Below, in pieces: positions 20,432 through 57,549 of a stretch of DNA of 64,000 nt. The DNA comes from an uncultured Nitrospirota bacterium (GTDB lineage Bacteria > Nitrospirota > Nitrospiria > Nitrospirales > UBA8639), in assembly GCA_937139405.1 (NCBI GenBank), contig CAKZPV010000025.1, positions 1 to 64,000 of the forward strand. Direction: 5' to 3'. Below the pieces are notes generated by a model, which did not search any database, was not told the DNA's origin, and saw only the letters and a list, made by a program, of their open reading frames with translations. Both the position numbers and the translations under genes were made by a program. Position 1 is the stretch's first letter, and each line of letters starts with the position of its first letter.

Positions 20432-21162
20432 CGGTACAAAGCCTCATGGGTAAAGGTAAACCGTTCACGGATAAGCGGGTCCTCCGCCTCCGCCTGCATG
20501 GGCTTTCCCTGCCCATCAAGCAGAGGGACAATCTGGCCTTTGGTTGTGCGAGTGAACATCGGCCACTGAGGCTGGGAAAACCGTGAATAATACCGATCGC
20601 GTAACGCTGCATCGGAGAAGATGTATTCCACGCGATCATAATACTGTTGTTTGAAATGATTGAGATGCGTCAGAAACCCCAAATAAATGCGTGGTGCAGT
20701 CTTCTGAGCCAACTCCACTTCCAACGCCGTCATCGTATGACCCGTGGCGACAATAGCATCCGGACGAGAGGCGGCTGGAAGATCCAGATGCCACTCACTC
20801 TGAAAGTCAAAAGGCAGCGTGAGCGTGGAGCGAGTCAGCACAGCTTGTTGAACCGACAAGTGATGAATATTAAGACCCGACACGACCGACGTTTTGCTAA
20901 CGGCATACAACTCGGCTTTTTCCGACAAACACTGAGCCAAGGCTTTACCCTCTTTGCCCAAATAGTACAAATGTTCGTAGATGAACGGCGACTTGATGGT
21001 CTGCACCAATCCTCCACGTTGGATCAGCTGAAAAAATCGACTTTGATTCGTCCGTTTCAACCCGAGGGCCTGAGACAGAATTCTGGGTGTCGACCACTGA
21101 AATTCGAGCAGCCAATGAATTACAAAATCACGCTTATCTTGATACCGACTTCGGTTCGTCAT
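20428..21162 (-). CDS. replication-relaxation family-like protein
   Basis: A 244-residue protein. Residues 1-70 form a winged helix (DFVIHWLLEFQWSTPRILS, SRFFQLIQRGGLVQT). The rest has the layout of the replication-relaxation family: a strand ending in PDAIVATGHTMTALEVELAQK, where D and the E-x-E resemble a PD-(D/E)xK nuclease fold, then FLTHLNHFKQQYYDRVEYI. In other plasmids such proteins lie near oriT or the coupling gene. The ATG at 21162 follows a purine-rich GAGGGGAG. It is first in the leftward operon, next to the candidate oriT. Nuclease activity is inference. Confidence 0.6.
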   Translation of the reverse strand: MTNRSRYQDKRDFVIHWLLEFQWSTPRILSQALGLKRTNQSRFFQLIQRGGLVQTIKSPFIYEHLYYLGKEGKALAQCLSEKAELYAVSKTSVVSGLNIHHLSVQQAVLTRSTLTLPFDFQSEWHLDLPAASRPDAIVATGHTMTALEVELAQKTAPRIYLGFLTHLNHFKQQYYDRVEYIFSDAALRDRYYSRFSQPQWPMFTRTTKGQIVPLLDGQGKPMQAEAEDPLIRERFTFTHEALYR

Positions 21163-25711: not shown

Positions 25712-26620
25712 TTAAATCACTTCCCCTTGTTTTAAGACCTCACTAGCAATTTTGGCACCTGTCTGGTTTGGACCGGCCCACAAAAGGTAATACAAATGAG
25801 AGCCCTGGGTATTTGTAATGAGTCTTGGTTTGGATGAATATCCATAGGCTTGCTTTAATCTTCTCTGATACCATTTTGCTAATTGTTGTCCTGCATCCTT
25901 CTTTTTAATCCTCTGTTCACCAAAAAGACCGGTTTGATCCTCGTAAACTATTTTTTCCCAGTCTGATGATCCAAAATAATCGGTAAGCATTAGATTTCGT
26001 TCCTCGGAAAACTGGCCCGATTTTGGTAATAATCTTTGAATAGCCATTCCGACCGGTAAGTTGAGAATGATTTCTATAGCCTTTGTTTGACCTAGACCAT
26101 GAATAGTTTTCCAGGGGACTTGCATCCCAAAGGGGTCAATAAAAGCAATTGCACGGCATTTTTTCCAATTATATTTGGTGTTATTTAGTAAATTTTGTTG
26201 AAGTTGTTCATTCGCCTCGCCCTGAAGAATTGCAACTTTTCTCTTATCCCCATAGCTCCTGCGAAAGGCTTCTAATTCACTTATTCGCTGTGTGTCTTTT
26301 TCAATGAAAATGTACTCTGTAAAAGGAATTTGAATATCTAAGGCAACTTTTGGAGAACCATGGATGTAGATTTCTGTTTCTTGTTCCTGTTCTCTAACAA
26401 AGTCAGCTACGTCGAGTAACGGATGTTGATAATCGGCTTGGTTTTTGTACTGTCTGAGAGGAGCTTTCCCAGATCCGGCAAATACATCAACATAGATAAA
26501 AGCTTTGCACCAGCGTTGTTTTTGGAGGATAGTTGTATAGGCACGTAAGTATTTATCCAAACAATCAAGTTTTTCACGTGCCCAGGGTCCTACCGTGCCA
26601 TCAGTAACATAACTGGTCAT
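25712..26620 (-). CDS. tcmP: three-Cys-motif partner protein TcmP
   Basis: A 302-residue protein of the TcmP type: KLDCLDKYLRAYTTIL, then IYVDVFAGSGKAPLRQY, AIAFIDPFGMQVPWKTI and LYYLLWAGPNQTGAKIA. The GSG loop after an acidic strand and the DPFG motif give a methyltransferase-like Rossmann outline, but no activity is known. Its ATG overlaps the TGA of the upstream three-Cys-motif gene (ATGA), a pairing that defines the family. Local base composition is more AT-rich than the transfer block, suggesting separate acquisition. Confidence 0.88.
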   Translation of the reverse strand: MTSYVTDGTVGPWAREKLDCLDKYLRAYTTILQKQRWCKAFIYVDVFAGSGKAPLRQYKNQADYQHPLLDVADFVREQEQETEIYIHGSPKVALDIQIPFTEYIFIEKDTQRISELEAFRRSYGDKRKVAILQGEANEQLQQNLLNNTKYNWKKCRAIAFIDPFGMQVPWKTIHGLGQTKAIEIILNLPVGMAIQRLLPKSGQFSEERNLMLTDYFGSSDWEKIVYEDQTGLFGEQRIKKKDAGQQLAKWYQRRLKQAYGYSSKPRLITNTQGSHLYYLLWAGPNQTGAKIASEVLKQGEVI

Positions 26621-27375
26621 TTAGCAGTTACATTAGGGTGGTAAGATTCTTCAATGGTAAATGGATATTGATCCCACGTATGACCATCGAGTTTTCGGCC
26701 GCCAGATTTCGGTCTGGGACCACCCCATTGCTTAAAGAAGAAAGGAATATGTTGAGCAATACATTGGTCTCGAACAGAGCGAACCCATGAAAGCTGCATT
26801 GGCCGTGCCTGGGGCCCGCTTTCCCCTCCAACAATGACCCAGCGAATGCCAGTTAAATCCAAATCTCCTGGCGGACCAATGAGGGGCTCAATGGAAAGGA
26901 AGCGCACGCTGGCATTCGTATCCTGAATATGCCTAATTCGGGAACGTTTTGTATGATCTTCCAGAGAAGTGCCTAACCAAATGTGTTTTGGGGAAGATTT
27001 ATTTTTATAGCGTTCATTAATGAAGGTTCGCATTAAGGAGCTACGTTTGGTTAAGACCTGAAAAATATGCCAATCGGCCTTCTCCATGGTTTCAAAAACA
27101 TTAATGATAAAATCCATTGGTATATCTTTATGAAACAAATCACTCATGGAATTCACAAAAATCAGTTTTGATTTTTTCCATGTTAGAGGTTGTTCAATAC
27201 GTTCCGGTCTAAGTGTCAGGTCAAAACCATTTTCAAATGGATGGTCCTGAACTCCTCGAAAGCGCTCAGAAAATCGCTCTGCATAGCAATTATCACATCC
27301 AGCACTAATCTTCGTGCATCCAGTCACAGGGTTCCAAGTTGCATTTGTCCATTCTATTGTTGAAGCTTGCGCCAT
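26617..27375 (-). CDS. phage Gp37/Gp68-like three-Cys-motif protein (DUF5131)
   Basis: A 252-residue protein with the motif WNPVTGCTKISAGCDNCYA: C20-x6-C27-x2-C30, as expected for an iron-sulfur or zinc site. Later family blocks are KLIFVNSMSDLFHKDIP, WHIFQVLTKR, HIWLGTSLEDH, WVIVGGESGPQARPM and FFFKQWGG. The alternating beta/alpha layout with a three-cysteine start resembles a radical-SAM-type barrel, though the spacing is not the canonical CxxxCxxC. It is cotranscribed with tcmP. Substrate and biological role are unknown; a DNA- or nucleotide-modifying role is speculation. Confidence 0.9.
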   Translation of the reverse strand: MAQASTIEWTNATWNPVTGCTKISAGCDNCYAERFSERFRGVQDHPFENGFDLTLRPERIEQPLTWKKSKLIFVNSMSDLFHKDIPMDFIINVFETMEKADWHIFQVLTKRSSLMRTFINERYKNKSSPKHIWLGTSLEDHTKRSRIRHIQDTNASVRFLSIEPLIGPPGDLDLTGIRWVIVGGESGPQARPMQLSWVRSVRDQCIAQHIPFFFKQWGGPRPKSGGRKLDGHTWDQYPFTIEESYHPNVTAK

Positions 27376-28877: not shown

Positions 28878-28914
28878 AACGTGCTCTATACGTTTATATT
28901 AATTAAAACGTAAA

Positions 28915-28926
28915 ACGTTATAACGT
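28915..28926. promoter_or_regulatory. palindrome upstream of repA
   Basis: A perfect 12-bp palindrome, ACGTTATAACGT, starts 38 bases upstream of the repA start. Further ACGT cores occur at 28879, 28890 and 28908, so the repA leader may hold several contacts for a repressor, possibly RepA itself. Confidence 0.45.
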
Positions 28927-28997: not shown

Positions 28998-29134
28998 TTC
29001 CTTCAACCGACGTCGGTTCCTTCAACTGCCTTATTTCTTCCTTCAATGGCCCTCTTTTTCTTCCTTCAAGAGCCTCTTAATCTTCCTTCAGCCGCCCTAC
29101 CCGTTCCTTCAACTGCCCCTACCCTTGTGGATAA
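28998..29134. other. iteron replication origin (oriV)
   Basis: Six direct repeats of TTCCTTCA start at 28998, 29017, 29038, 29061, 29083 and 29104, spaced 19-23 bases (two helical turns); four continue as TTCCTTCAA, and several add a GCC-rich tail. A perfect DnaA box (TTGTGGATAA, reverse of TTATCCACAA) lies at 29125-29134. AT-rich sequence follows toward 29340. The order iterons, DnaA box, AT-rich part beside a RepA gene is the classic layout of an iteron-controlled plasmid origin. Confidence 0.8.
29005..29018. repeat. 14-bp palindrome, first copy of ACCGACGTCGGT
   Basis: AACCGACGTCGGTT is a perfect palindrome overlapping the first two iterons. Its 12-bp core recurs at 31642-31653, on the far side of parAB. 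Confidence 0.7.
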
Positions 29135-29343
29135 CCTATCTGATTTATTCAACCTTACCTGCGATCTATTGATAATCGGCATACTTTTGCCAGTATATTC
29201 AAAATATTTTAATCATTGTGTTTTTCTGAACTTCGAGAAATGACCCAAGAGTTCAGGCTCAAGGAGGCGATAAAAGTAAGTTTTGAAACTTTTAAAAATT
29301 TGTATGGGAAAATTTCCTCCAGGTTAGGGAAGAAATCACGGAA

Positions 29344-30465
29344 TTATTCGGGAGGAGAAAAATGGGATGAAGCCGAGTCAGCAGATGGTAAAGACGAATG
29401 ATTAAATCCTTGGACCTTTTGAATCAATTCCTTCTGCGTAATTTTTTGGTCCAAAAAATCTTGGAACAGCGTTAAGGCAGAGCGAATTGGTTCATGATCG
29501 AATGGTCGATCCGGTCGAAACTGAATCAACAGGGTATAGCCCTTTTCCTGTGTTTTCCCCAAAAAATTATATCGGACTGGCTGGAAGCTACTATGCGTCC
29601 GACGTTCCCCGGAAACTTCTTTGCGAATTTGTTTCACGGTGAGTTTTTTTGTCACGAGTTTCTCTACGACTTTTTGAAGACGAGAAGTATCTTTGCTTAA
29701 TGGTAGTAAGGCTTCCGCATGGCCCATTGTCACGTCAGAACCAGGAGCAAACAATCGTTCCAGGGTGGGCTGTGGGATTTCTAGAATACTCACCGCATGA
29801 CTGACGCGTCTATGACTAATGCCCAATCGTTTGGCCAATTGCGCTTGGGTCAATCCTAATTCGTTGACCAATCTGGCATAGCCCTGTGCTTCTTCATAGG
29901 GCGTAAAGTTTTCTCGCTGAAGATTTTCACCAAACGCTGCGACCATGGCTTCTTCGTCCGTTTGCGTTCGAACAATGGCCGGAATGTTCTCTCGACCCAA
30001 CTTTTGGAAGGAACGCAACCGTCGCTCTCCGGCGATCAGTTCATATTTCCCTGAGCCTACTGGACGGACGATAATGGGTTGATGCAATCCGCTTTGTTCA
30101 ATGGATTCCATCAACCCTCCTATTGAATCTTCATCAAAAAAGACTCGTGGTTGATAGGGGCTGAGTTGAACGTCTTGGAGAGAAACTTCGGTGAGGGTGC
30201 CCAGATGAGAATGTTCGCTCAGATCAAGGGTTGGAGGATGAACGACCGTGGGCGAAACAGAAGGCGTTGGAGGAGTCTCCTGAGTGAGAACGGTTAGCTC
30301 TGGCTCATTGTCTTCTTTTTGTAGAACGTCTTCTGAGGGCCCGAGTGTTTGATCAATAATTTGATTTTGCACTTCAGGATTCAAGACGGCCAATCCTTGG
30401 AGGGCTTTTCGTGTTTGTTCCTCTAAGAGTTGACGATCTTTTGAGACCTTCCCTTTAGCTTTCAT
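29344..30465 (-). CDS. parB: partition protein ParB
   Basis: A 373-residue ParB/Spo0J-type protein. The CTP-binding domain has LSPYQPRVFFDEDSI, LIAGERRLRSFQKLG and GENLQRENFTPYEEAQG; a helix-turn-helix follows (LTQAQLAKRLGISHRRVSHA). The C-terminus should dimerise. It loads at a centromere and stimulates ParA. Its ATG overlaps the parA stop (ATGA). A long N-terminal arm of about 90 residues is plasmid-type. The binding site is not known; the ACCGACGTCGGT palindromes on both sides of the operon are candidates. Confidence 0.95.
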   Translation of the reverse strand: MKAKGKVSKDRQLLEEQTRKALQGLAVLNPEVQNQIIDQTLGPSEDVLQKEDNEPELTVLTQETPPTPSVSPTVVHPPTLDLSEHSHLGTLTEVSLQDVQLSPYQPRVFFDEDSIGGLMESIEQSGLHQPIIVRPVGSGKYELIAGERRLRSFQKLGRENIPAIVRTQTDEEAMVAAFGENLQRENFTPYEEAQGYARLVNELGLTQAQLAKRLGISHRRVSHAVSILEIPQPTLERLFAPGSDVTMGHAEALLPLSKDTSRLQKVVEKLVTKKLTVKQIRKEVSGERRTHSSFQPVRYNFLGKTQEKGYTLLIQFRPDRPFDHEPIRSALTLFQDFLDQKITQKELIQKVQGFNHSSLPSADSASSHFSPPE

Positions 30466-31319
30466 TTCACTGGAGCCTCATGGTCCGCCACGCCTTTTTC
30501 AATGACTAACTCTGGGGCGGGAAGTTTAAAGTTGAGCCGTTCCAGGATTTCACTGGCCACATCTGCGTAATCTGTGGCCCCACTCGCCCGAAGATCCTGT
30601 TGAAAAATGGTTTTATTCAACATAATCGCTTTATCAAAATCAGTATTGCTGCGAATCGCTGTCCGAAACACTTGGTCGCCAAAGGCCTGTCGGATGGCGG
30701 TCGTCATGGTCTTAGCAATATTCGTTCGCATATCGCATCGTGTAATGAGATATCCTAACGTCTGAGTTTTTTGTCCTTGTTTAAAGACATTGACGTCGTT
30801 CACTTTTTTGAATAGGGATTGAATGCCATCAAGGGCAAATCGATTCGAGGCTTCAATGGGAATGATTACATGGGAAGCCGCATACAGTGCGTTCGTCATA
30901 AAGGTCCCAAGATTGGGAGGACAATCAATCAGGACGAAATCATAATTGTTGAGGACTTCTGATTTTAATAAGGCAGAATGAAGTCCTAATACAGCCCCAG
31001 CCCCGTTTTGAATATTCGGTTCCTGTTCAAACAGATCGATATGGGAGGGAACTAAGTCCAGCCCTTTGACGTTGGTTGGCACAATGGCATCATCAATTAG
31101 GGCTGAACCACCTAGAACTTGGGCAATAGTTGTTTGCCCTTTATAGTCTCGGCGGTCATGTGGGAAAAGGTTTTGCGTTAAATTGCTTTGCGGATCTAAA
31201 TCAATGACCAGCACTTGCATTTTTTTACTTTTCCGAACTAACCCTGCTCCGGTATTGGCCACGGTTGTGGTTTTTCCAACCCCACCTTTATGATTGGTTA
31301 CTGCAATGATTATAGCCAC
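30462..31319 (-). CDS. parA: partition ATPase ParA
   Basis: A 285-residue Walker-type ParA with deviant Walker A KGGVGKTT at 11-18, switch region VLVIDLDPQSNLTQN and Walker B FVLIDCPPNLGTFM. It lacks the N-terminal helix-turn-helix of P1-type ParA, so it is the short (type Ib-like or chromosomal-like) form. With ParB it segregates the element. It is preceded by a long AT-rich regulatory region. Confidence 0.95.
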   Translation of the reverse strand: MAIIIAVTNHKGGVGKTTTVANTGAGLVRKSKKMQVLVIDLDPQSNLTQNLFPHDRRDYKGQTTIAQVLGGSALIDDAIVPTNVKGLDLVPSHIDLFEQEPNIQNGAGAVLGLHSALLKSEVLNNYDFVLIDCPPNLGTFMTNALYAASHVIIPIEASNRFALDGIQSLFKKVNDVNVFKQGQKTQTLGYLITRCDMRTNIAKTMTTAIRQAFGDQVFRTAIRSNTDFDKAIMLNKTIFQQDLRASGATDYADVASEILERLNFKLPAPELVIEKGVADHEAPVK

Positions 31320-31437
31320 CGTGCCACCTTGTAGTTATGATGATTTAAGCCCCCTACTTCCGGCTGCTTTTTAAAGAAAACAGGCGTAAATGTCAAGCGC
31401 AATCCACAATATGTCGTATACTTGGCTTGATAGCACC

Positions 31438-31464
31438 AGACTTATGGTCTTTGACCACAAGTCT
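31438..31464. repeat. inverted repeat upstream of parA
   Basis: Arms AGACTTATGGTC (31438-31449) and GACCACAAGTCT (31453-31464) match at 11 of 12 positions with a three-base loop. The site lies about 120 bases before the parA start, a likely operator position. Confidence 0.6.
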
Positions 31465-31640
31465 ATTTAGCTATACATACGATAAACATAGAGTGATGTT
31501 TCACGAACTGAAGCACTCTCATAAGTGTGGTTGTGTTGGCCTATTAGTTGGACCTTGTGCCTTGCTCTAAGACTATTCCTTCTGAAGTTGCTTGTTTCCA
31601 CTCTCACAAGTCATTGATAAATATAAGAAATAATGGCCAT

Positions 31641-31654
31641 TACCGACGTCGGTA
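31641..31654. repeat. 14-bp palindrome, second copy of ACCGACGTCGGT
   Basis: TACCGACGTCGGTA is a perfect palindrome standing alone in AT-rich DNA about 320 bases upstream of parA. It shares the exact 12-bp core with the copy at 29006-29017 in the iteron origin. Confidence 0.7.
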
Positions 31655-31985
31655 TAAACACTATGCCTTTAAATTATTTTTAATATTTACTTTATTTATA
31701 ACATATCTATTTAAGATTAAATAAATATTAATGCCATGTTTATTGTAAAATTTAATTTTAAATAAAATTTCAATGTAAATTGTATTACTATTGAAAATTT
31801 TGTGTGTGCTGGTGTAAAAATTATAAATAATAAAATATTAAATTTCTGAAACTATATTGGTTTGAACTTTTAATTAGTATTTTTAATTTTCTAAAAAATA
31901 ATAGGCTTATGAAGTTAAATTATTTTAAATAATATAAAGCTAGGGAAGAGGATTTTTTGAAAGATAATTAGAAATTTTTTAATTA

Positions 31986-32642: not shown

Positions 32643-32830
32643 TTTCTATTAAGTTTCAATTAGTTAGGTAATGTTACTGACGATTGCTTATTTACCCTCT
32701 TATTTATATGTATTTATTATAGGGTTAATATGGAGGACTAGCAAGATGTGAAAATAGTTTATACTGCTGGTAAAGTTCCCTTACCGGTTGTTTGACAATT
32801 TACTTGGGGAGGGGTATCCTGACACTCACG

Positions 32831-33868
32831 ATGAGTAACGGCCCCCGAAACAATCCTCCTGAAGAAACCCTCCATCCTCTTGTTCCTGAAGTCCTCGACT
32901 CCATTTCCAATTCCCTTCTTAGTATAGGGAAACAACCGGGGTCCCTCACATCGCTCCAACTCAGCAACTATATGACGGGTTTTTTGGCAGAGGCCAAGGA
33001 TCTGAATAAAGGCACGGATTCCATCCGGGGCTATGAAAAAGCCTTCGCCCGGTTTCTTGGCTATTGGCAGAAGGAAGGCAAATCGTATTCTTTTAGTCAA
33101 AACCTCTGTGTCGCGTTTGCCATATTTTTAGACAAAGAAGGCCTCTCGGCTAATACCCGTCAGGTGTATCTCAGTGCCATCCGATTATTGGGGAAATGGT
33201 TGGTCTTTCGGGGGGTCGTCCGTGGCAATCCGATGGAGGGCATCCGTAGCCCGAAGATTACCCCCCTGTTTCGGAAACAACCCCTCAGCTTGGAAGGCGT
33301 CACGCAAGTTTTACAGACCTTGAAAGAAGAAACGCTTCAGCAGCTCCGCGATAAAACTATCCTCTATCTGATGCTCAAAACTGGGGTCCGCGAGATTGAG
33401 GTCATTCGGGCCACGGTCGAAGACTATTTCACGGTTCCGGAAGGACAGATCTTACGTATTCATGGAAAAGGTCGGGAGGAGGCAGATAACTTTGTGGTGC
33501 TCATGCCGGAAGTGAAGGCCCTGCTCGACACGTATCTCGCACGGCGTGCCCAGGCCAGCGGCAAAAACTGGCCAGCACCTGAGGAACCGTTATTTCTCAC
33601 CCTCGGCAAGCGCCAGGGGCATGCGATCAAACCCCGGACGATTCAAGGATTGGTACGATGGTGGCTGACGGCTGCTCAGGTGAAGAGCCCGGTCATCACT
33701 GGGCATTCCCTACGCCATACGGCCGCGACCATGGCCTTAGAGGGTGGCGCGCCGATTACGGCGGTCAAAGATATGTTGCGGCATAGCTCCCTCAAGCAAA
33801 CGAACATCTATGTGCATACGCTCGATCGAATGAAGCGCGGCGGAGAACGCTTTATTACGCAGTATTAG
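32831..33868 (+). CDS. tyrosine recombinase/integrase
   Basis: A 345-residue XerC/D-like recombinase. The N-terminal SAM-like domain (YEKAFARFLGYWQKEGKSYS) is followed by the catalytic domain with Arg in LKTGVREIEVI, Lys in HGKGRE, HSLRH in TGHSLRHTAATMA, His in LRHSSLKQ and Tyr in TNIYVHT. It may integrate the element, resolve dimers or move a cassette. The start is uncertain: ATG at 32831, or TTG at 32792 which would add 13 residues. It is read rightward, opposite to parAB, and is followed closely by a Uma2 gene. Confidence 0.92.
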   Translation: MSNGPRNNPPEETLHPLVPEVLDSISNSLLSIGKQPGSLTSLQLSNYMTGFLAEAKDLNKGTDSIRGYEKAFARFLGYWQKEGKSYSFSQNLCVAFAIFLDKEGLSANTRQVYLSAIRLLGKWLVFRGVVRGNPMEGIRSPKITPLFRKQPLSLEGVTQVLQTLKEETLQQLRDKTILYLMLKTGVREIEVIRATVEDYFTVPEGQILRIHGKGREEADNFVVLMPEVKALLDTYLARRAQASGKNWPAPEEPLFLTLGKRQGHAIKPRTIQGLVRWWLTAAQVKSPVITGHSLRHTAATMALEGGAPITAVKDMLRHSSLKQTNIYVHTLDRMKRGGERFITQY

Positions 33869-44141: not shown

Positions 44142-45788
44142 ATGGCAGGGATTAGTCACATCTTCAATATTGCCCGTTCGGGGATCCAAGCCCACCAGCA
44201 GGGCCTCGCCACGACTGCTCAGAATATTTCTAACATCAATACTGAGGGCTATTCTCGCCAAGAAGTGGTGTTGGAGACTAATCGCCCGGCTGAAGGGGTC
44301 ATTGGGAGCGGAGTTCAGGTCGGACAGATTCGGCGGACGGTCGATACATTTCTTGAAAATCAATTAACAGCTGGGAATGAAGATCTTGGGTTCATTGCGG
44401 CGCGCTCTACGTTTTTATCTCAGGCCGATGGCATTGTGACCGAAACCGAAAACTCGGGGCTTTCCAATGGCGTGACGGAATTTTTTAATGCCCTCCGGGA
44501 TGTCGCGACCAATCCGGAAAGTCCGATCCAAAGAACCGTGTTATTGGCCAAAGGCCAAACCGTGAGTACAGAATTTGTCAACCAAGCTCAAGCCTTAAAC
44601 CAAATACGCTTGGATGCCAATCAAGAAATTGTTCGTCATGTCGAAACCGTGAATGGATTGGCGACCCGTATTGCATCATTAAATGATGATATTTTCAAGG
44701 CAGAATCCAGTGGCCGTAATGCCCCGGATTTGCGAGATCAACGTGCCGTGCTCATCAATGATCTTGCCGAATTGGTGGATATTGAACAAATTCAACTCCG
44801 CGACGGCATTGGCATCAATGTGGGGGGACAATTACTCGTTGGAGGCAATCATGCCAATGCCTTATCCACGATTCCTGATGCTGATAATCCTCCCATGAAC
44901 GACGTGGCATTTGTGCGGAGCGATGGAAGTGCCTTTGCCATATCTTCGAAGCTCCAAGGTGGAAAAATCGGAGGATTACTTCAGGTCCGTGATGTAGATG
45001 TGGTGGGTTTTCAAGATCGTGTCGACCGGTTGGCCGCAACGTTCATCAATGAATTTAATCAGCAACATCAGGCCGGCTTTGCGTTAGATGGGACCACCAA
45101 TAATTCCTTTTTTACAGAGATAACCCCTCCAGCTCCCGTGGCAAGCGATACCAATAGTGGGACGGCCGTGGGAACCTCTGTTGCGATTACTGACCCGACG
45201 CTGCTGACGTTTCAAAATTATGAAGTGCAGTTTTCTGGCGCCTCAGCCTATTCCATTGTGAATACGGCTAGCGGGTCAACAGTTACCACTGGATCCTACA
45301 CCTCCGGAGCGGCCATTAATTTCGAGGGAATTGATGTGATATTAACTGGTGCGGCTGCGACCGGCGATGTCTATACGGTGAGTGTCCATCAAGGTTCGGC
45401 CCAGCGCTTTGGTCTTGCCTTAACGGATGTTGACAAAGTCGCGGCATCTTCGACGGCCCTTGGTGTACCTGGAAATAATGTCAACGCGTTAGCCTTGGTG
45501 AATCTGCACACGGGTCGTCAAGCCACGCTCGGGAATTTGACCATCAATGATTACCAGACGATTACGACCGGAAATGTGGGCAATGCCACACGTGAGGCAG
45601 AATTACTCTTAAATACCACAACTCTTGAACTCGAACAAATAAAGGGTTTGCGGGAAAGTGTGTCCGGAGTTTCATTGGACGAAGAACTAACGAACTTATT
45701 GACCTTCCAACGCTCATTTGAGGCTTCTGCCAGATTGATAACGGTGGCGGATGAATTATTACAAACCGTCATTAATCTGGGTCGCTAA
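44142..45788 (+). CDS. flgK: flagellar hook-associated protein FlgK
   Basis: A 548-residue HAP1. The N-terminal rod domain (FNIARSGIQAHQQGLATTAQ, NISNINTEGYSRQEV) and the C-terminal block (VSLDEELTNLLTFQRSFEAS, ITVADELLQTVINLGR) are the conserved coiled-coil ends that join hook and filament; the middle (about 320-420) is the variable surface part, rich in Thr and Ser. GGTGGAG lies just before the ATG. No flgL, flgM, flgN or other flagellar gene is adjacent: a metal gene lies upstream and copA is convergent downstream. Confidence 0.95.
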   Translation: MAGISHIFNIARSGIQAHQQGLATTAQNISNINTEGYSRQEVVLETNRPAEGVIGSGVQVGQIRRTVDTFLENQLTAGNEDLGFIAARSTFLSQADGIVTETENSGLSNGVTEFFNALRDVATNPESPIQRTVLLAKGQTVSTEFVNQAQALNQIRLDANQEIVRHVETVNGLATRIASLNDDIFKAESSGRNAPDLRDQRAVLINDLAELVDIEQIQLRDGIGINVGGQLLVGGNHANALSTIPDADNPPMNDVAFVRSDGSAFAISSKLQGGKIGGLLQVRDVDVVGFQDRVDRLAATFINEFNQQHQAGFALDGTTNNSFFTEITPPAPVASDTNSGTAVGTSVAITDPTLLTFQNYEVQFSGASAYSIVNTASGSTVTTGSYTSGAAINFEGIDVILTGAAATGDVYTVSVHQGSAQRFGLALTDVDKVAASSTALGVPGNNVNALALVNLHTGRQATLGNLTINDYQTITTGNVGNATREAELLLNTTTLELEQIKGLRESVSGVSLDEELTNLLTFQRSFEASARLITVADELLQTVINLGR

Positions 45789-48475: not shown

Positions 48476-51400
48476 TCATAACTCCTCCTCGAGTGCCAAC
48501 GCTGATTCCTGCTTAAGATCTTGGCTTATTACCGGCTTTCCCCTCATTTGAAACACGCGGGTCGTCCCACCCACGAAGGTTTCGATCGTGTCGTTGATAC
48601 ACAAGGCTATCGGAGGTGCCAGGCGCTCCCGCCCACGCACCGTGAGGGAGTCGTGCGTCAGCCGCAAATCAAACGATTGCCCTCGATAGCGGATTCGCAT
48701 ATCAAGGCGCCCTATGTCTTGAGGCAATTCCGGATTGATCCGCAGCACATTGTTTTTGACCTCGATTCCCGTCGAAACGCGCTGCACCAAATCGACCGTT
48801 CCTGCCATGGCACCCAAGTGGATACCTTCGGCCGTGGAGCCTTGCTGAACATCATGCACGTCGCTTTGCAGCGCCTCTGCAAAGAGATTCATGGCGCGTG
48901 GTCGGTCGGAACGCGCTAAGACCCACGCACAAACCACACGGCACAACGTTGAGCCATGAGCCACGCGGTCAGCATAGTAGGCGACGTTGCGTGGAATCGT
49001 TTGATATTCGAACGGATAGTCCAGACGCTCGAATAGCTCCCCAAGTTCCTCGGCGGAAAACAGGTAAAACAACATGAGCACGTCGGCCTGTTTTGAAAGT
49101 TTGTAGCCATTGGGGCTGTCATTCTCCGCCTCGAGAATGAGGTCGAGCCGCTGGATGTTGCCGTAACGGGTTTGGTAGTCCTCCCAATCGAACTCGCGTA
49201 ATGTTTCGTAGCCCTCGAACTGGCTGATGATTCCATCTTTCTGTAACGGTAGGTACATCCTGCGGCTGATGACGTCCCAGCGCGCAATTTCTTCTCTGGA
49301 CAATCCTAATTGCGTGGTAAGTTCCGCCCGGCGCAGGTCAGGAAGGAGGTCGAGCACCTCCAGCGCCCGACATAGGACCCACACGGCCATCATGTTGGTA
49401 TACGCGTTGTTGTTGAGGCCAAGTGTCGGGGAATCCGGATAGCGGTCATGGAACTCATCTGGACCCATCACACCGCGGATCTCGTAGCGCCCACGATCGT
49501 TATTCAAGCTCGCAATGCTGGACCAGAAGCGAGCGATTTCGAGGATCAGTTCGGCGCCGTAGAACTGTAGAAACTCGATGTCGTGCGTGACTTGGAAGTA
49601 TTGCCACACGTTGTAGGCAATGGCGCTGCCCACGTGACGCTGCAGGTAAGTGTTGTCGCGCATCCAGCGCCGTGAGCGGGGGTTCAGGTTGAAAACTTGC
49701 GTCTCCTCTTGTCCGTCACTCCCGCTTTGCCATGGATACATGGCTCCCTTGTAGCCAGCACTTTGGGCAGCCGTACGAGCCTCACCCAGACGTCGATACC
49801 GGTACATCAACAGCGCGCGGGTGATTTCGGGCATGCGCGTGTTGAAGAATGGGAAGATAAACAATTCATCCCAGAAAATGTGGCCTTGGTAGGCCTCACC
49901 CGTCCAGCCCCGCGGAGGTACGCCTATATCGAGTCCGATGGAATTGGGTGAAACCGTTTGGAGCAGGTGAAACATGTTCAACCGAAGCAGCATGGGGATG
50001 TTCAATTTAAACTCCGACGCGGCGGGTTGGAGATGAATGTCGAAATGGCGCCACACGTGCTTCCAGGCAAGAATATGATCCGCCATCACTGCTGCAAAGT
50101 TCCCGGCACGCGCAAGGGCCTTACGGGCTTCCAGCCCGCACTCCGAAATAGCGTGATCGCGGGAGGTATACACTGAAGCCAGTTTTTCCAGCACCAGTGT
50201 TTCCCCTGCCTGCAGGTCGGTTTCCAGCTCTTGCCCAATATATCCTGGTTCTTCAATGTTGTGGCGTGGGACTTCCAGCAGTTGTCCCTGGAGGAAGGCT
50301 TGCGTGCGCGCCGCTTGTGCGACATGGAGATATGATTGGGTGGTGCGTACCAACAGGGAGACCGTATCCCTGCTCACGATCTCACCTGTCAGCGGCTCCA
50401 AGTGTTTCGGGTTAAAGTTGCGGTACAACTTGGCGCCGGCATTGATGACACGCCCTTCAATCGCGGAACGGACGGTGACGCGTTCGGACCAATTCTCGGC
50501 AGTCAGCGTTAACTCCAGTGCACCCAGGTGCATGTCCCGCATCGAGACCAGGCGTCGCTCCTGCAACCTACTACGCCGCCCTTGGTCGTCCATGAAGCGT
50601 ATGATCCGCGATAGAACACCGTGCCTCAGATCGAGTTCCTGGCGGTAGGATAGAATTTGCACTGATCTTGTATCGAACCACGCTTGATCGCCGATACGAA
50701 ACGCAAGTGCGAGCCAGTTGGGAAAATTCACCAGATCCTCGTTTTCAACCACTCGACCATTGACCTGGGTGTGCAGACGATTGTAACCGCCAGCGAGGTA
50801 GGTTCCCGGATAATGAACCTCATCCGCCCCTGCCCATGGTGCGGCCGCCCGAGTCGTGAAATAGCCATTGCCCAAGGAACATAAGGCTTCGCGGGTTCCC
50901 TCTTCTGCTGGATTAAACCCTTCGAAAACCAGCGACCACGCGGAAGGAGGCTCGACCGATACCTGAACTTGGCCCAAATTGGTCACTACGACATCGGCTC
51001 CGGCCTCACGCAGCGCCTGCGAATGCCCGCTTCGATCGACTCCGATGACACAGCCAAATTGGCCTGCGCGCCCGGCCTCAACTCCAGCAATCGCGTCTTC
51101 CACGACAACGGCCCGCGAGGGTTCGGTCCTGAGGCGCCGTGCGGCCTCCAGGAATGCATCCGGTGCCGGCTTGCCCTTAAGCTTAAGTCGCATGGTGTCT
51201 CTCCCGTCCACTCGGATGTCGAACAGCTGGGTAATACCCGCAACTGCGAGTACTTCGGCGCAGTTGTTGCTGGAAGACACGACGGCAGTCTTCATCTCTT
51301 GAGCCCGAAGCGTTCGCACCAACGCGATTGATGGTTCATACGGCTCGACGCAGTGTTGCTTCAGATGCTCGAGGAAATACCGGTCTTTACGATTTCCCAG

Positions 51401-51715
51401 TCCTCGAATGGTTTGAGCCTCAGGACCGTCTTCGGATGTGCCAAGTGGCAGCTCAACTCCTCGCGACATGAGGAAAGCGGTCACGCCATCGTAACGGGGC
51501 TTGCCATCGACGTAGCGTCGGTAGTCGGCGTCTAGGTCAAAGGGAATGAACGGTTCGCCCATCTCTGCCGACCTTTGCTCGAGAAACCTATCGAACAGCT
51601 TTTTCCAAGCCATGGCATGGATGCGGGCCGTCTTCGTCAGGACCCCGTCCAGATCAAATAAAACCGCGTCGTAGTCTCGTGGGGAGAGTGTAATGACGGG
51701 GCATATACAGGTCAT
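48476..51715 (-). CDS. fused beta-phosphoglucomutase and GH65 phosphorylase
   Basis: A 1079-residue bifunctional enzyme. Residues 1-250 are a HAD phosphatase-fold beta-phosphoglucomutase (nucleophile D21 and D23 in LFDLDGVLTKT, cap, AVVSSSNNCAEV, VVVEDAIAGVEAG). From about 260 comes a glycoside hydrolase family 65 protein (ALCSLGNGYFTTRAA, WDELFIFPFFNTRMPE; general acid Glu in GVMGPDEFHD). GH65 enzymes phosphorolyse trehalose, maltose or kojibiose to glucose and beta-glucose 1-phosphate; the mutase then gives glucose 6-phosphate. Fusion channels this intermediate. The exact disaccharide cannot be read from motifs. A phosphoketolase follows upstream on the same strand. Confidence 0.92.
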   Translation of the reverse strand: MTCICPVITLSPRDYDAVLFDLDGVLTKTARIHAMAWKKLFDRFLEQRSAEMGEPFIPFDLDADYRRYVDGKPRYDGVTAFLMSRGVELPLGTSEDGPEAQTIRGLGNRKDRYFLEHLKQHCVEPYEPSIALVRTLRAQEMKTAVVSSSNNCAEVLAVAGITQLFDIRVDGRDTMRLKLKGKPAPDAFLEAARRLRTEPSRAVVVEDAIAGVEAGRAGQFGCVIGVDRSGHSQALREAGADVVVTNLGQVQVSVEPPSAWSLVFEGFNPAEEGTREALCSLGNGYFTTRAAAPWAGADEVHYPGTYLAGGYNRLHTQVNGRVVENEDLVNFPNWLALAFRIGDQAWFDTRSVQILSYRQELDLRHGVLSRIIRFMDDQGRRSRLQERRLVSMRDMHLGALELTLTAENWSERVTVRSAIEGRVINAGAKLYRNFNPKHLEPLTGEIVSRDTVSLLVRTTQSYLHVAQAARTQAFLQGQLLEVPRHNIEEPGYIGQELETDLQAGETLVLEKLASVYTSRDHAISECGLEARKALARAGNFAAVMADHILAWKHVWRHFDIHLQPAASEFKLNIPMLLRLNMFHLLQTVSPNSIGLDIGVPPRGWTGEAYQGHIFWDELFIFPFFNTRMPEITRALLMYRYRRLGEARTAAQSAGYKGAMYPWQSGSDGQEETQVFNLNPRSRRWMRDNTYLQRHVGSAIAYNVWQYFQVTHDIEFLQFYGAELILEIARFWSSIASLNNDRGRYEIRGVMGPDEFHDRYPDSPTLGLNNNAYTNMMAVWVLCRALEVLDLLPDLRRAELTTQLGLSREEIARWDVISRRMYLPLQKDGIISQFEGYETLREFDWEDYQTRYGNIQRLDLILEAENDSPNGYKLSKQADVLMLFYLFSAEELGELFERLDYPFEYQTIPRNVAYYADRVAHGSTLCRVVCAWVLARSDRPRAMNLFAEALQSDVHDVQQGSTAEGIHLGAMAGTVDLVQRVSTGIEVKNNVLRINPELPQDIGRLDMRIRYRGQSFDLRLTHDSLTVRGRERLAPPIALCINDTIETFVGGTTRVFQMRGKPVISQDLKQESALALEEEL

Positions 51716-55707: not shown

Positions 55708-57549
55708 TTATTCTTTGGTCCTTAAGAATAAGAATTGATTGGTAAGAGTTTCGATCGCTTGCTGGTAACGGGTGTGTTCATCTGAACGAAAGGGGCTATA
55801 ATTTAAATTCTTGTAGAGGTCGGTCAACCGTGTAAAAAACTCTCGGGCTTCCTCTGGATTTGCAAATTGATAGTCTTTTTCGAGCAGCAACCTAATGCAT
55901 TGGAAGCTTTCTTTTTGGCGATCAAGGGAGGTGGAGCTATCCACTTCATCGAAAGCATCCTGTTGCAAATACACCATGTCGAGAAATTTGCCCTTTTGCC
56001 AAGTTACATAATCCTCCAGCGAAATGCCTTCTTCCCCTGTCACCTGCATCATTTGAAAGACCGCATCGCCCCGCCTCAGAAGATCCAGGCTAGCCTGAAC
56101 GTGTTCGGACCACTCTGAATCCAAGTGAGCCTCATACCAGGGTTGAAGTTGGTTCGAATACCGTGACCAAGAAATGAGAGGATCGACGGCTGGATAAAAA
56201 CGGCGGTAGGCACGATCGGACGATAGTCCTAAAAACGTTTTGACCGTTGAAAGAGTTGATTGAGTGACGGGTTCTTCGAAATTGCCACCGGCCGGGGAAA
56301 CTGTTCCTATCATGGTGACACTCCCAATTGACCCATCTGAGCATTTGATGACTCCGGCTCGCTCATAAATGGATTTGATGTTTGAATCCAGATATGCCGG
56401 GAAAGCTTCTTCCCCCGGGATTTCTTCCATTCGGCCCGAGGTTTCACGTATGGCTTGTGCCCACCGCGATGTTGAATCTGCAATGACCAGGACGTGGTAT
56501 CCCATCTGCCGAAAATATTCCCCCAAGGCCATTCCCGTATAAATGGAAGATTCTCTTGCAGCAACTGGCATTGATGAGGTATTGCAGATAATAATGGTCC
56601 GATCCATGAGGGACCCTCCGGTTCGGGGGTCGGCCAAGTTCGGGAATTCCGTAATCGTTTCGACAACCTCACCAGCTCGCTCACCACACGCCACGATAAT
56701 AACGATGTCAATATTAGAAAATCTGGCTATTAGGCTTTGGAGGACCGTTTTGCCTGCACCAAAAGGACCTGGAATGCAAGCCGTTCCTCCACGGGCTATT
56801 GGAAAGAACGTGTCGATAAGGCGAATGCTTGTGATAAGGGGTTCTGATGGATAGATGCGTTCCACGAGTTGTTTTTGGAGCATCGCTTCTGGCAACGGAC
56901 GACGAATGGGCCATCGTTGAATCATCGTGACATCATGGCTCTTGCCATCCACTCCAGAAATTCGAGCTACGGGGGCGTTCGCGGTGAAATGACCTTCATG
57001 AATCCAAGCCACGGTCATAGGGCCCGTCTGGTTAAAAGGAACCATGATTTTATGGGTAAACCGACCTTCTTGAACGGTTCCGATTACCTCCCCTGCCCGT
57101 AAGGTGGCACCAATACAGGCTAGTGGTGTGAACGCCCATTTTCGTTGAAGATCAACGGGGTGGGCATAGATCCCACGGGGAAGAAAAAACCCATGCTGTT
57201 GTGCCAGTACCGGCAGAGGGTTTTGAAGTCCATCAAACACTTGCCCAAGGAGCCCAGGGCTCAACGTAACAGATAACATTTCGCCTGTGAGTTCCACCGC
57301 TTGCCCAACGGCAATGCCGCCTGTCTCTTCGTACACTTGTAAATCTGCCGTCGTACCATGGATTCGCAGGACTTCGGCCTTTAGCCGCAGGTTCCCTACG
57401 CAGACATAGGCCACCTCGTTTTTCACAATGTGGCTTGCTTTGGCTTCAATGGTCACAAGGTTTTCTCGAACACCGATGACTTCGGCATGACGAGTAAGGG
57501 AACCTGCGTGTGTAGTGACCAAGTTAGGCAAAGACCCGCTTGTATTCAC
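55708..57549 (-). CDS. ntpA: V-type ATPase catalytic subunit A
   Basis: A 613-residue catalytic subunit with P-loop GPFGAGKT at 261-268 (the A-type GPFGAGKT replaces the F-type GGAGVGKT), the non-homologous region of about 80 residues before it, [20 protein letters not shown] and [20 protein letters not shown]. It hydrolyses or makes ATP in the A3B3 head. The start is GTG, seven bases after GGAG, overlapping the DUF2764 gene by 26 bases. It is the last gene of the operon, whereas in spirochaete and chlamydial operons it lies before B. Confidence 0.97.

Follow-up and report, generated by a model that had tools for sequence, protein, structure and literature searches.

The ParB2 protein of Vibrio binds directly to a replication-inhibitory 39-mer, where it competes with the initiator (PMC3688505). 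In this 39-mer, which is not a centromere, two 9-bp initiator repeats flank a spacer with a parS-like half-site (PMC3688505), and half-site binding by ParB has been documented in Pseudomonas (PMC10419367). In repABC replicons, some parS sites have been proposed to serve partition and others, located near rep, the control of rep expression (PMC9040568). The contacts of Caulobacter ParB with canonical parS are made by the residues Q162, G170, K171, S172, R173, N178 and R204 (PMC7383237). The locus described here comprises a proposed site and genes of the ParABS type and, alongside, an origin-embedded site. A literature search on ParB, parS and Nitrospira did not return any related report.

The stretch of 64,000 nucleotides analysed here (the window) belongs to a contig of 140,834 bp. 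The two ends of this contig overlap exactly by 77 bp, which makes a complete circular plasmid of 140,757 bp very probable, and the TrbI, CagX and T4SS-DNA_transf domains encoded on it indicate that the plasmid is conjugative. On the minus strand, the gene of a winged-helix-like protein is followed by parA, parB and rep, with a DnaA box and six iterons between parB and rep, and a tyrosine recombinase gene lies ahead on the plus strand (Table 1). ParA is a deviant Walker ATPase, as it is in type I ParABS systems, and has no N-terminal DNA-binding domain. ParB combines a CTPase-type ParB_N domain with a helix-turn-helix, as expected of a ParABS system, and its nearest solved relatives are Spo0J and Noc. 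The Pfam and NCBIfam searches gave no match for the 218-aa winged-helix-like protein. The plasmid also carries tcmP (three-Cys-motif partner) and DUF5131 genes side by side (25712-27375), a FlgK-like flagellar gene (44142-45788), a GH65-HAD fusion gene (48476-51715) and a gene for the catalytic subunit of an A/V-type ATP synthase (55708-57549).

Table 1 Features of the proposed maintenance region, with positions in the window
Feature	Position	Strand	Remarks
rep, replication initiator, 409 aa	27648..28877	-	Pfam RPA (PF10134), 1.1e-07; has relatives
Six iterons, core TTGAAGGAA, putative Rep sites of oriV	28998..29112	-	Spacing 21, 22, 23, 21, 19 bp
Origin copy AACCGACGTCGGTT, proposed secondary ParB site	29005..29018	.	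In the 10-bp spacer of iterons 5/6
DnaA box TTATCCACA	29126..29134	-	Present in 4/4 clade members
parB, 373 aa	29344..30465	-	ParB_N PF02195 2.1e-27, HTH_ParB PF17762 1.5e-18, TIGR00180
parA, 285 aa, Walker-type ATPase	30462..31319	-	Pfam AAA_31 2.1e-44; KGGVGKTT motif
Probable parA promoter (TTGACA, then TTTAAA)	31370..31396	-	Kept in the L035 alignment
Proposed parS TACCGACGTCGGTA	31641..31654	.	Inside the invariant 20-bp block 31637-31656 (TATACCGACGTCGGTAATGG on the minus strand)
Winged-helix-like protein gene, 218 aa	31986..32642	-	Fold guessed from sequence
Tyrosine recombinase	32792..33868	+	Adjoins the module in relatives too

The 12-bp palindrome ACCGACGTCGGT is present at 31642-31653, upstream of parA, and at 29006-29017, inside the iteron array between iterons 5 and 6 of six. 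The initial annotation had thus correctly described an identical palindrome on both sides of parAB, as well as its 14-bp extensions, which differ in their outer bases (A..T at 29005-29018, T..A at 31641-31654). The statement that there is no other exact copy in the window also holds, by motif count, for the entire 4.46-Mb assembly, and 0.26 copies per genome and 0.008 per plasmid are expected from the base composition. A copy with one mismatch is found at 21144 of the window; 0.04 matches to ACCGACGTCGGT at ≤1 mismatch are expected in the shuffled window. In a set of 197 genomes of Nitrospirales, TACCGACGTCGGTA is confined to the two that carry the close ParB and to G170, where there is one copy. 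In viral contigs, 48 stretches with TACCGACGTCGGTA were encountered, none of them near a ParB relative, which is consistent with background, and they were rejected as candidates. Relatives of ParB, ParA and Rep were also searched for in viral contigs and none was found, and all ParB matches among the PLSDB plasmids were distant (<60% identity).

The upstream copy is located between parA and the winged-helix gene, 322 bp upstream of parA. A scan of genome contigs revealed three close relatives of the locus, namely L034 (ParB 94%), L035 (ParB 75%; its contig is that of L005 from G016) and L036, which consists of the end of parB and rep. The upstream palindrome and the 20-bp block around it are invariant in L034 and L035, while over the entire upstream region the window shares 60% identity with L035. 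The contig of L036 stops short of this region. The upstream site of this clade is seen in only three sequences, two of which are closely related. A conserved cis-acting palindrome near parAB that is rare elsewhere is what a ParABS system requires. Half a chromosomal parS (GTGAAACA) between the upstream copy and parA was dropped as a further candidate, since it is not palindromic and is absent from L035. The adjoining segment 31655-31985 has 84% A+T, compared with 50% on average in the window, and is AT-rich in L034 as well.

Searches with Rep and ParB in other Nitrospirales yielded 14 more loci (L096-L109). The order parA-parB-rep is found in 13 of them; in the region covered, L109 has parA and parB but no rep. 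Upstream of parA, each of the 14 loci bears one to four copies of a palindrome of its own, the sequence of which differs between ParB subfamilies: GTTGCGTYRACGCAAC in L096-L099, GTTGCGCSSGCGCAAC in L100, L101 and L103, AATTCGATATCGAATT in L102, GTTGCGCGCGCGCAAC in L104, TGTTACGCGCGTAACA in L105-L107, AGTTCGGYRCCGAACT in L108 and TTATTAGCGGCTAATAT in L109. A palindrome of L109 (TATTAGCGGCTAATA, 204 bp upstream of parA) resembles the operator of KorB from RK2. A near-identical pair of palindromes lies upstream of parA in 11 of the 14 loci, and shuffled upstream regions gave such a pair in 0 of 200 trials per locus. At ≤1 mismatch, TGTTACGCGCGTAACA is confined to three of the 197 genomes, exactly those with that ParB subfamily. 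The GTTGCG types are concentrated upstream of parA, and the loose pattern is scattered as background; AATTCGATATCGAAT is present in G146 and two other genomes.

The question which protein reads the palindrome was addressed by Mantel tests with one locus per subfamily, in two sets of n=6 and n=7. The distance between palindromes correlated with that between ParB proteins (r 0.79 with p 0.022 for n=6 and r 0.74 with p 0.004 for n=7), to a lower degree with ParA distance (r 0.61 and 0.59), and neither with Rep distance (r -0.10 and -0.01) nor with the distance of the winged-helix-like protein (r -0.28). The recognition-helix region of ParB alone reached r 0.68, which does not exceed the values for the complete protein; the joint inheritance of parAB and the site therefore accounts for some of the signal. 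Covariation still separates ParB, as the likely reader of the palindrome, from Rep and the winged-helix-like protein, and the specificity of the site matches the cognate ParB in the manner of ParABS systems, although this match is correlational.

The position of one palindrome copy within the iteron array could also mean that the palindrome is an operator of Rep, or one shared by Rep and ParB as the initial annotation had suggested, and that the upstream copy lets Rep regulate parAB. This is very unlikely: the palindrome does not track Rep in either Mantel set, which leaves the shared operator unsupported, and, by inspection, the iterons of L096 and L102 are similar (GAGAGGGTT..ACAA) while their upstream palindromes differ. 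Furthermore, the upstream copy and the probable parA promoter downstream of it are approximately 245 bp apart, so that the copy does not overlap this promoter as a simple operator would. We regard it as similarly unlikely that the palindrome instead serves the linked winged-helix-like protein of 218 aa as its operator. Throughout the family, the gene of this protein is kept between parA and the integrase (recombinase) gene, and the palindrome is situated between this gene and parA. However, the palindrome lies on the 3' side of the gene and not at its promoter, the L034 homologue is just 74% identical and yet the palindrome is unchanged, and covariation is absent.

In view of its conservation, its rarity in the genome, the own palindrome of each ParB subfamily and the covariation with ParB, the upstream copy TACCGACGTCGGTA is almost certainly the parS of the plasmid and as such the putative landing site of ParB. 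The earlier interpretation of the palindrome as parS is therefore well supported for the upstream copy, but not for the origin copy, which is not conserved as an identical second site. To our knowledge, the parS sequence of this plasmid is not among the known parS sites.

At the positions that contact parS in Caulobacter, the alignment places Q, G, I, S, H, H and E in the plasmid ParB, which corresponds to changes of K171 to I, R173 to H, N178 to H and R204 to E. These altered contact residues fit a changed site. The chromosomal parB has two TGTTCCACGTGGAACA sites of its own less than 2 kb away, and the plasmid and chromosomal systems should therefore be orthogonal. The canonical chromosomal parS TGTTNCACGTGNAACA has no match at ≤2 mismatches in the plasmid window; its sites are on other contigs. 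The altered recognition helix of the plasmid ParB would thus provide a private plasmid site without interference with the chromosomal parS TGTTCCACGTGGAACA of the host.

The status of the origin copy, 128 bp before rep, is less clear-cut than that of the upstream copy. The series of iteron spacings is common to all four clade members, and iterons 5 and 6 are separated by CCGACGTCGG in the window, by CCGTCGTCGG in L034, by CCGTCGGCGG in L035 and by CTGTCGTCGG in L036. Since these spacers differ, the exact origin palindrome is private to this plasmid; its counterparts in the three relatives (ACCGTCGTCGGT, ACCGTCGGCGGT and ACTGTCGTCGGT) are not palindromic. The initial annotation had proposed conservation in plasmids with similar ParB as a check, and this applies to the upstream copy, which is identical in L034 and L035, but not to the origin copy, where the parS core is matched at 12/12 positions here and at 11/12, 10/12 and 10/12 in the relatives. 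The outer bases of the origin copy are opposite to those of the upstream copy, and it partially overlaps the iteron consensus (A..CGGT).

It is a real possibility, if somewhat short of an even chance, that only the upstream site is a parS and that the origin copy arose by coincidence from iteron sequence, namely from the last bases of iteron 5 and the GGCGG that leads into iteron 6, after one T-to-A change. The iteron consensus accounts for A1 and CGGT, and all three relatives are one to two bases off the palindrome, including a T at position 5. In addition, the parB-rep gaps of the 13 distant loci with rep match their local palindrome no better than shuffled sequence does. On the other hand, approximately seven positions are not explained by the iterons (a rough estimate of the chance of a match is 0.0004-0.01), and the last spacer has 10-12 of 12 positions of the parS core in all four members, compared with at most 8/12 elsewhere in their iteron arrays. 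When a null for the spacer of iterons 5/6 was generated by resampling, 0/200,000 cases reached ≥8/10; since some bases are absent from its columns, little weight is placed on this result. The origin site is degenerate yet recognisable in all three close relatives and absent from the 13 distant loci. As 1-mismatch parS-like palindromes are found upstream of parA in L104 and L107, an origin site with 11/12 matches could still bind ParB. From the sequences compared here, the chances that the origin copy is a functional ParB site appear to be about equal either way, and it probably represents a degenerate ParB site that is restricted to this clade and has at best a secondary or regulatory function. 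Only tentatively, and with more doubt than confidence, we consider that a complete parS core has come to lie between the last two iterons in this clade and that ParB loads at the origin and competes there with Rep.

Between the origin copy and rep, the promoter region of rep (28886-28926) contains ACGTT/AACGT repeats, including the palindrome ACGTTATAACGT at 28915-28926. Repeats like ACGTTA..TAACG..ACGTTACG also precede rep in the distant loci whose gaps were inspected, irrespective of parS. Repeats of the ACGTT/AACGT type in front of rep are probably a conserved rep operator.

Overall, there are good reasons to think that the recombinase, the winged-helix-like gene, parS, parA, parB, the iteron origin and rep form a plasmid maintenance unit, in which the upstream palindrome is the parS and the origin copy most likely a weaker ParB site. 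By analogy with the ParB family, a ParB dimer would place one helix-turn-helix on each half-site of TACCGACGTCGGTA, close and load as a clamp in a CTP-dependent manner and then slide onto neighbouring DNA, and ParA would drive the separation of the ParB-DNA complexes. More speculatively, ParB at the origin copy might compete with Rep at the last two iterons or dampen rep transcription. The coupling of replication to partition that was expected in the initial annotation is plausible.

The parS assignment predicts centromere sequences for a whole family of Nitrospirales plasmids, and the eight palindrome types paired with eight ParB recognition helices represent a natural data set on the recognition code between ParB and parS. 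If ParB indeed loads at the origin, a single protein would handle partition and set the replication frequency, and the mechanism would be the equivalent, on a plasmid, of ParB2 and the 39-mer in Vibrio. The origin-embedded site would make the link between partition and replication control addressable by a few base changes.

Among the known systems, the type I ParABS systems with a private palindromic parS, such as the replicon-specific systems of Burkholderia cenocepacia (PMC4948915), share with this plasmid the ParA ATPase, a ParB with ParB_N and helix-turn-helix domains, the palindrome beside parAB, an origin with iterons and DnaA box, and the presence of a separate chromosomal system. In contrast to these, there is a single upstream copy here instead of a cluster, and the host belongs to the Nitrospirales. 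The partition genes also adjoin the replication genes in those repABC replicons whose parS sites are specialised (PMC9040568), but these replicons have the consensus GTTNNNNGCNNNNAAC, oriV inside repC and a single operon. KorB of RK2 (PMC11790492) is likewise a clamp of the ParB family, and with its 16-bp operators it also controls replication and transfer genes; however, it has many operators and the partner KorA, whereas there are two sites here. Like the 39-mer of Vibrio cholerae chromosome II, which is bound by ParB2 and RctB (PMC3688505), the origin described here has a parS-like inverted repeat or half-site in the spacer of two 9-bp initiator repeats, with the true parS elsewhere. The spacer is 10 bp long here and not 19, and it can hold a complete parS core. 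The resemblance of the iteron 5/6 layout to the Vibrio 39-mer suggests that the same kind of competition between ParB and the initiator might take place on this plasmid.
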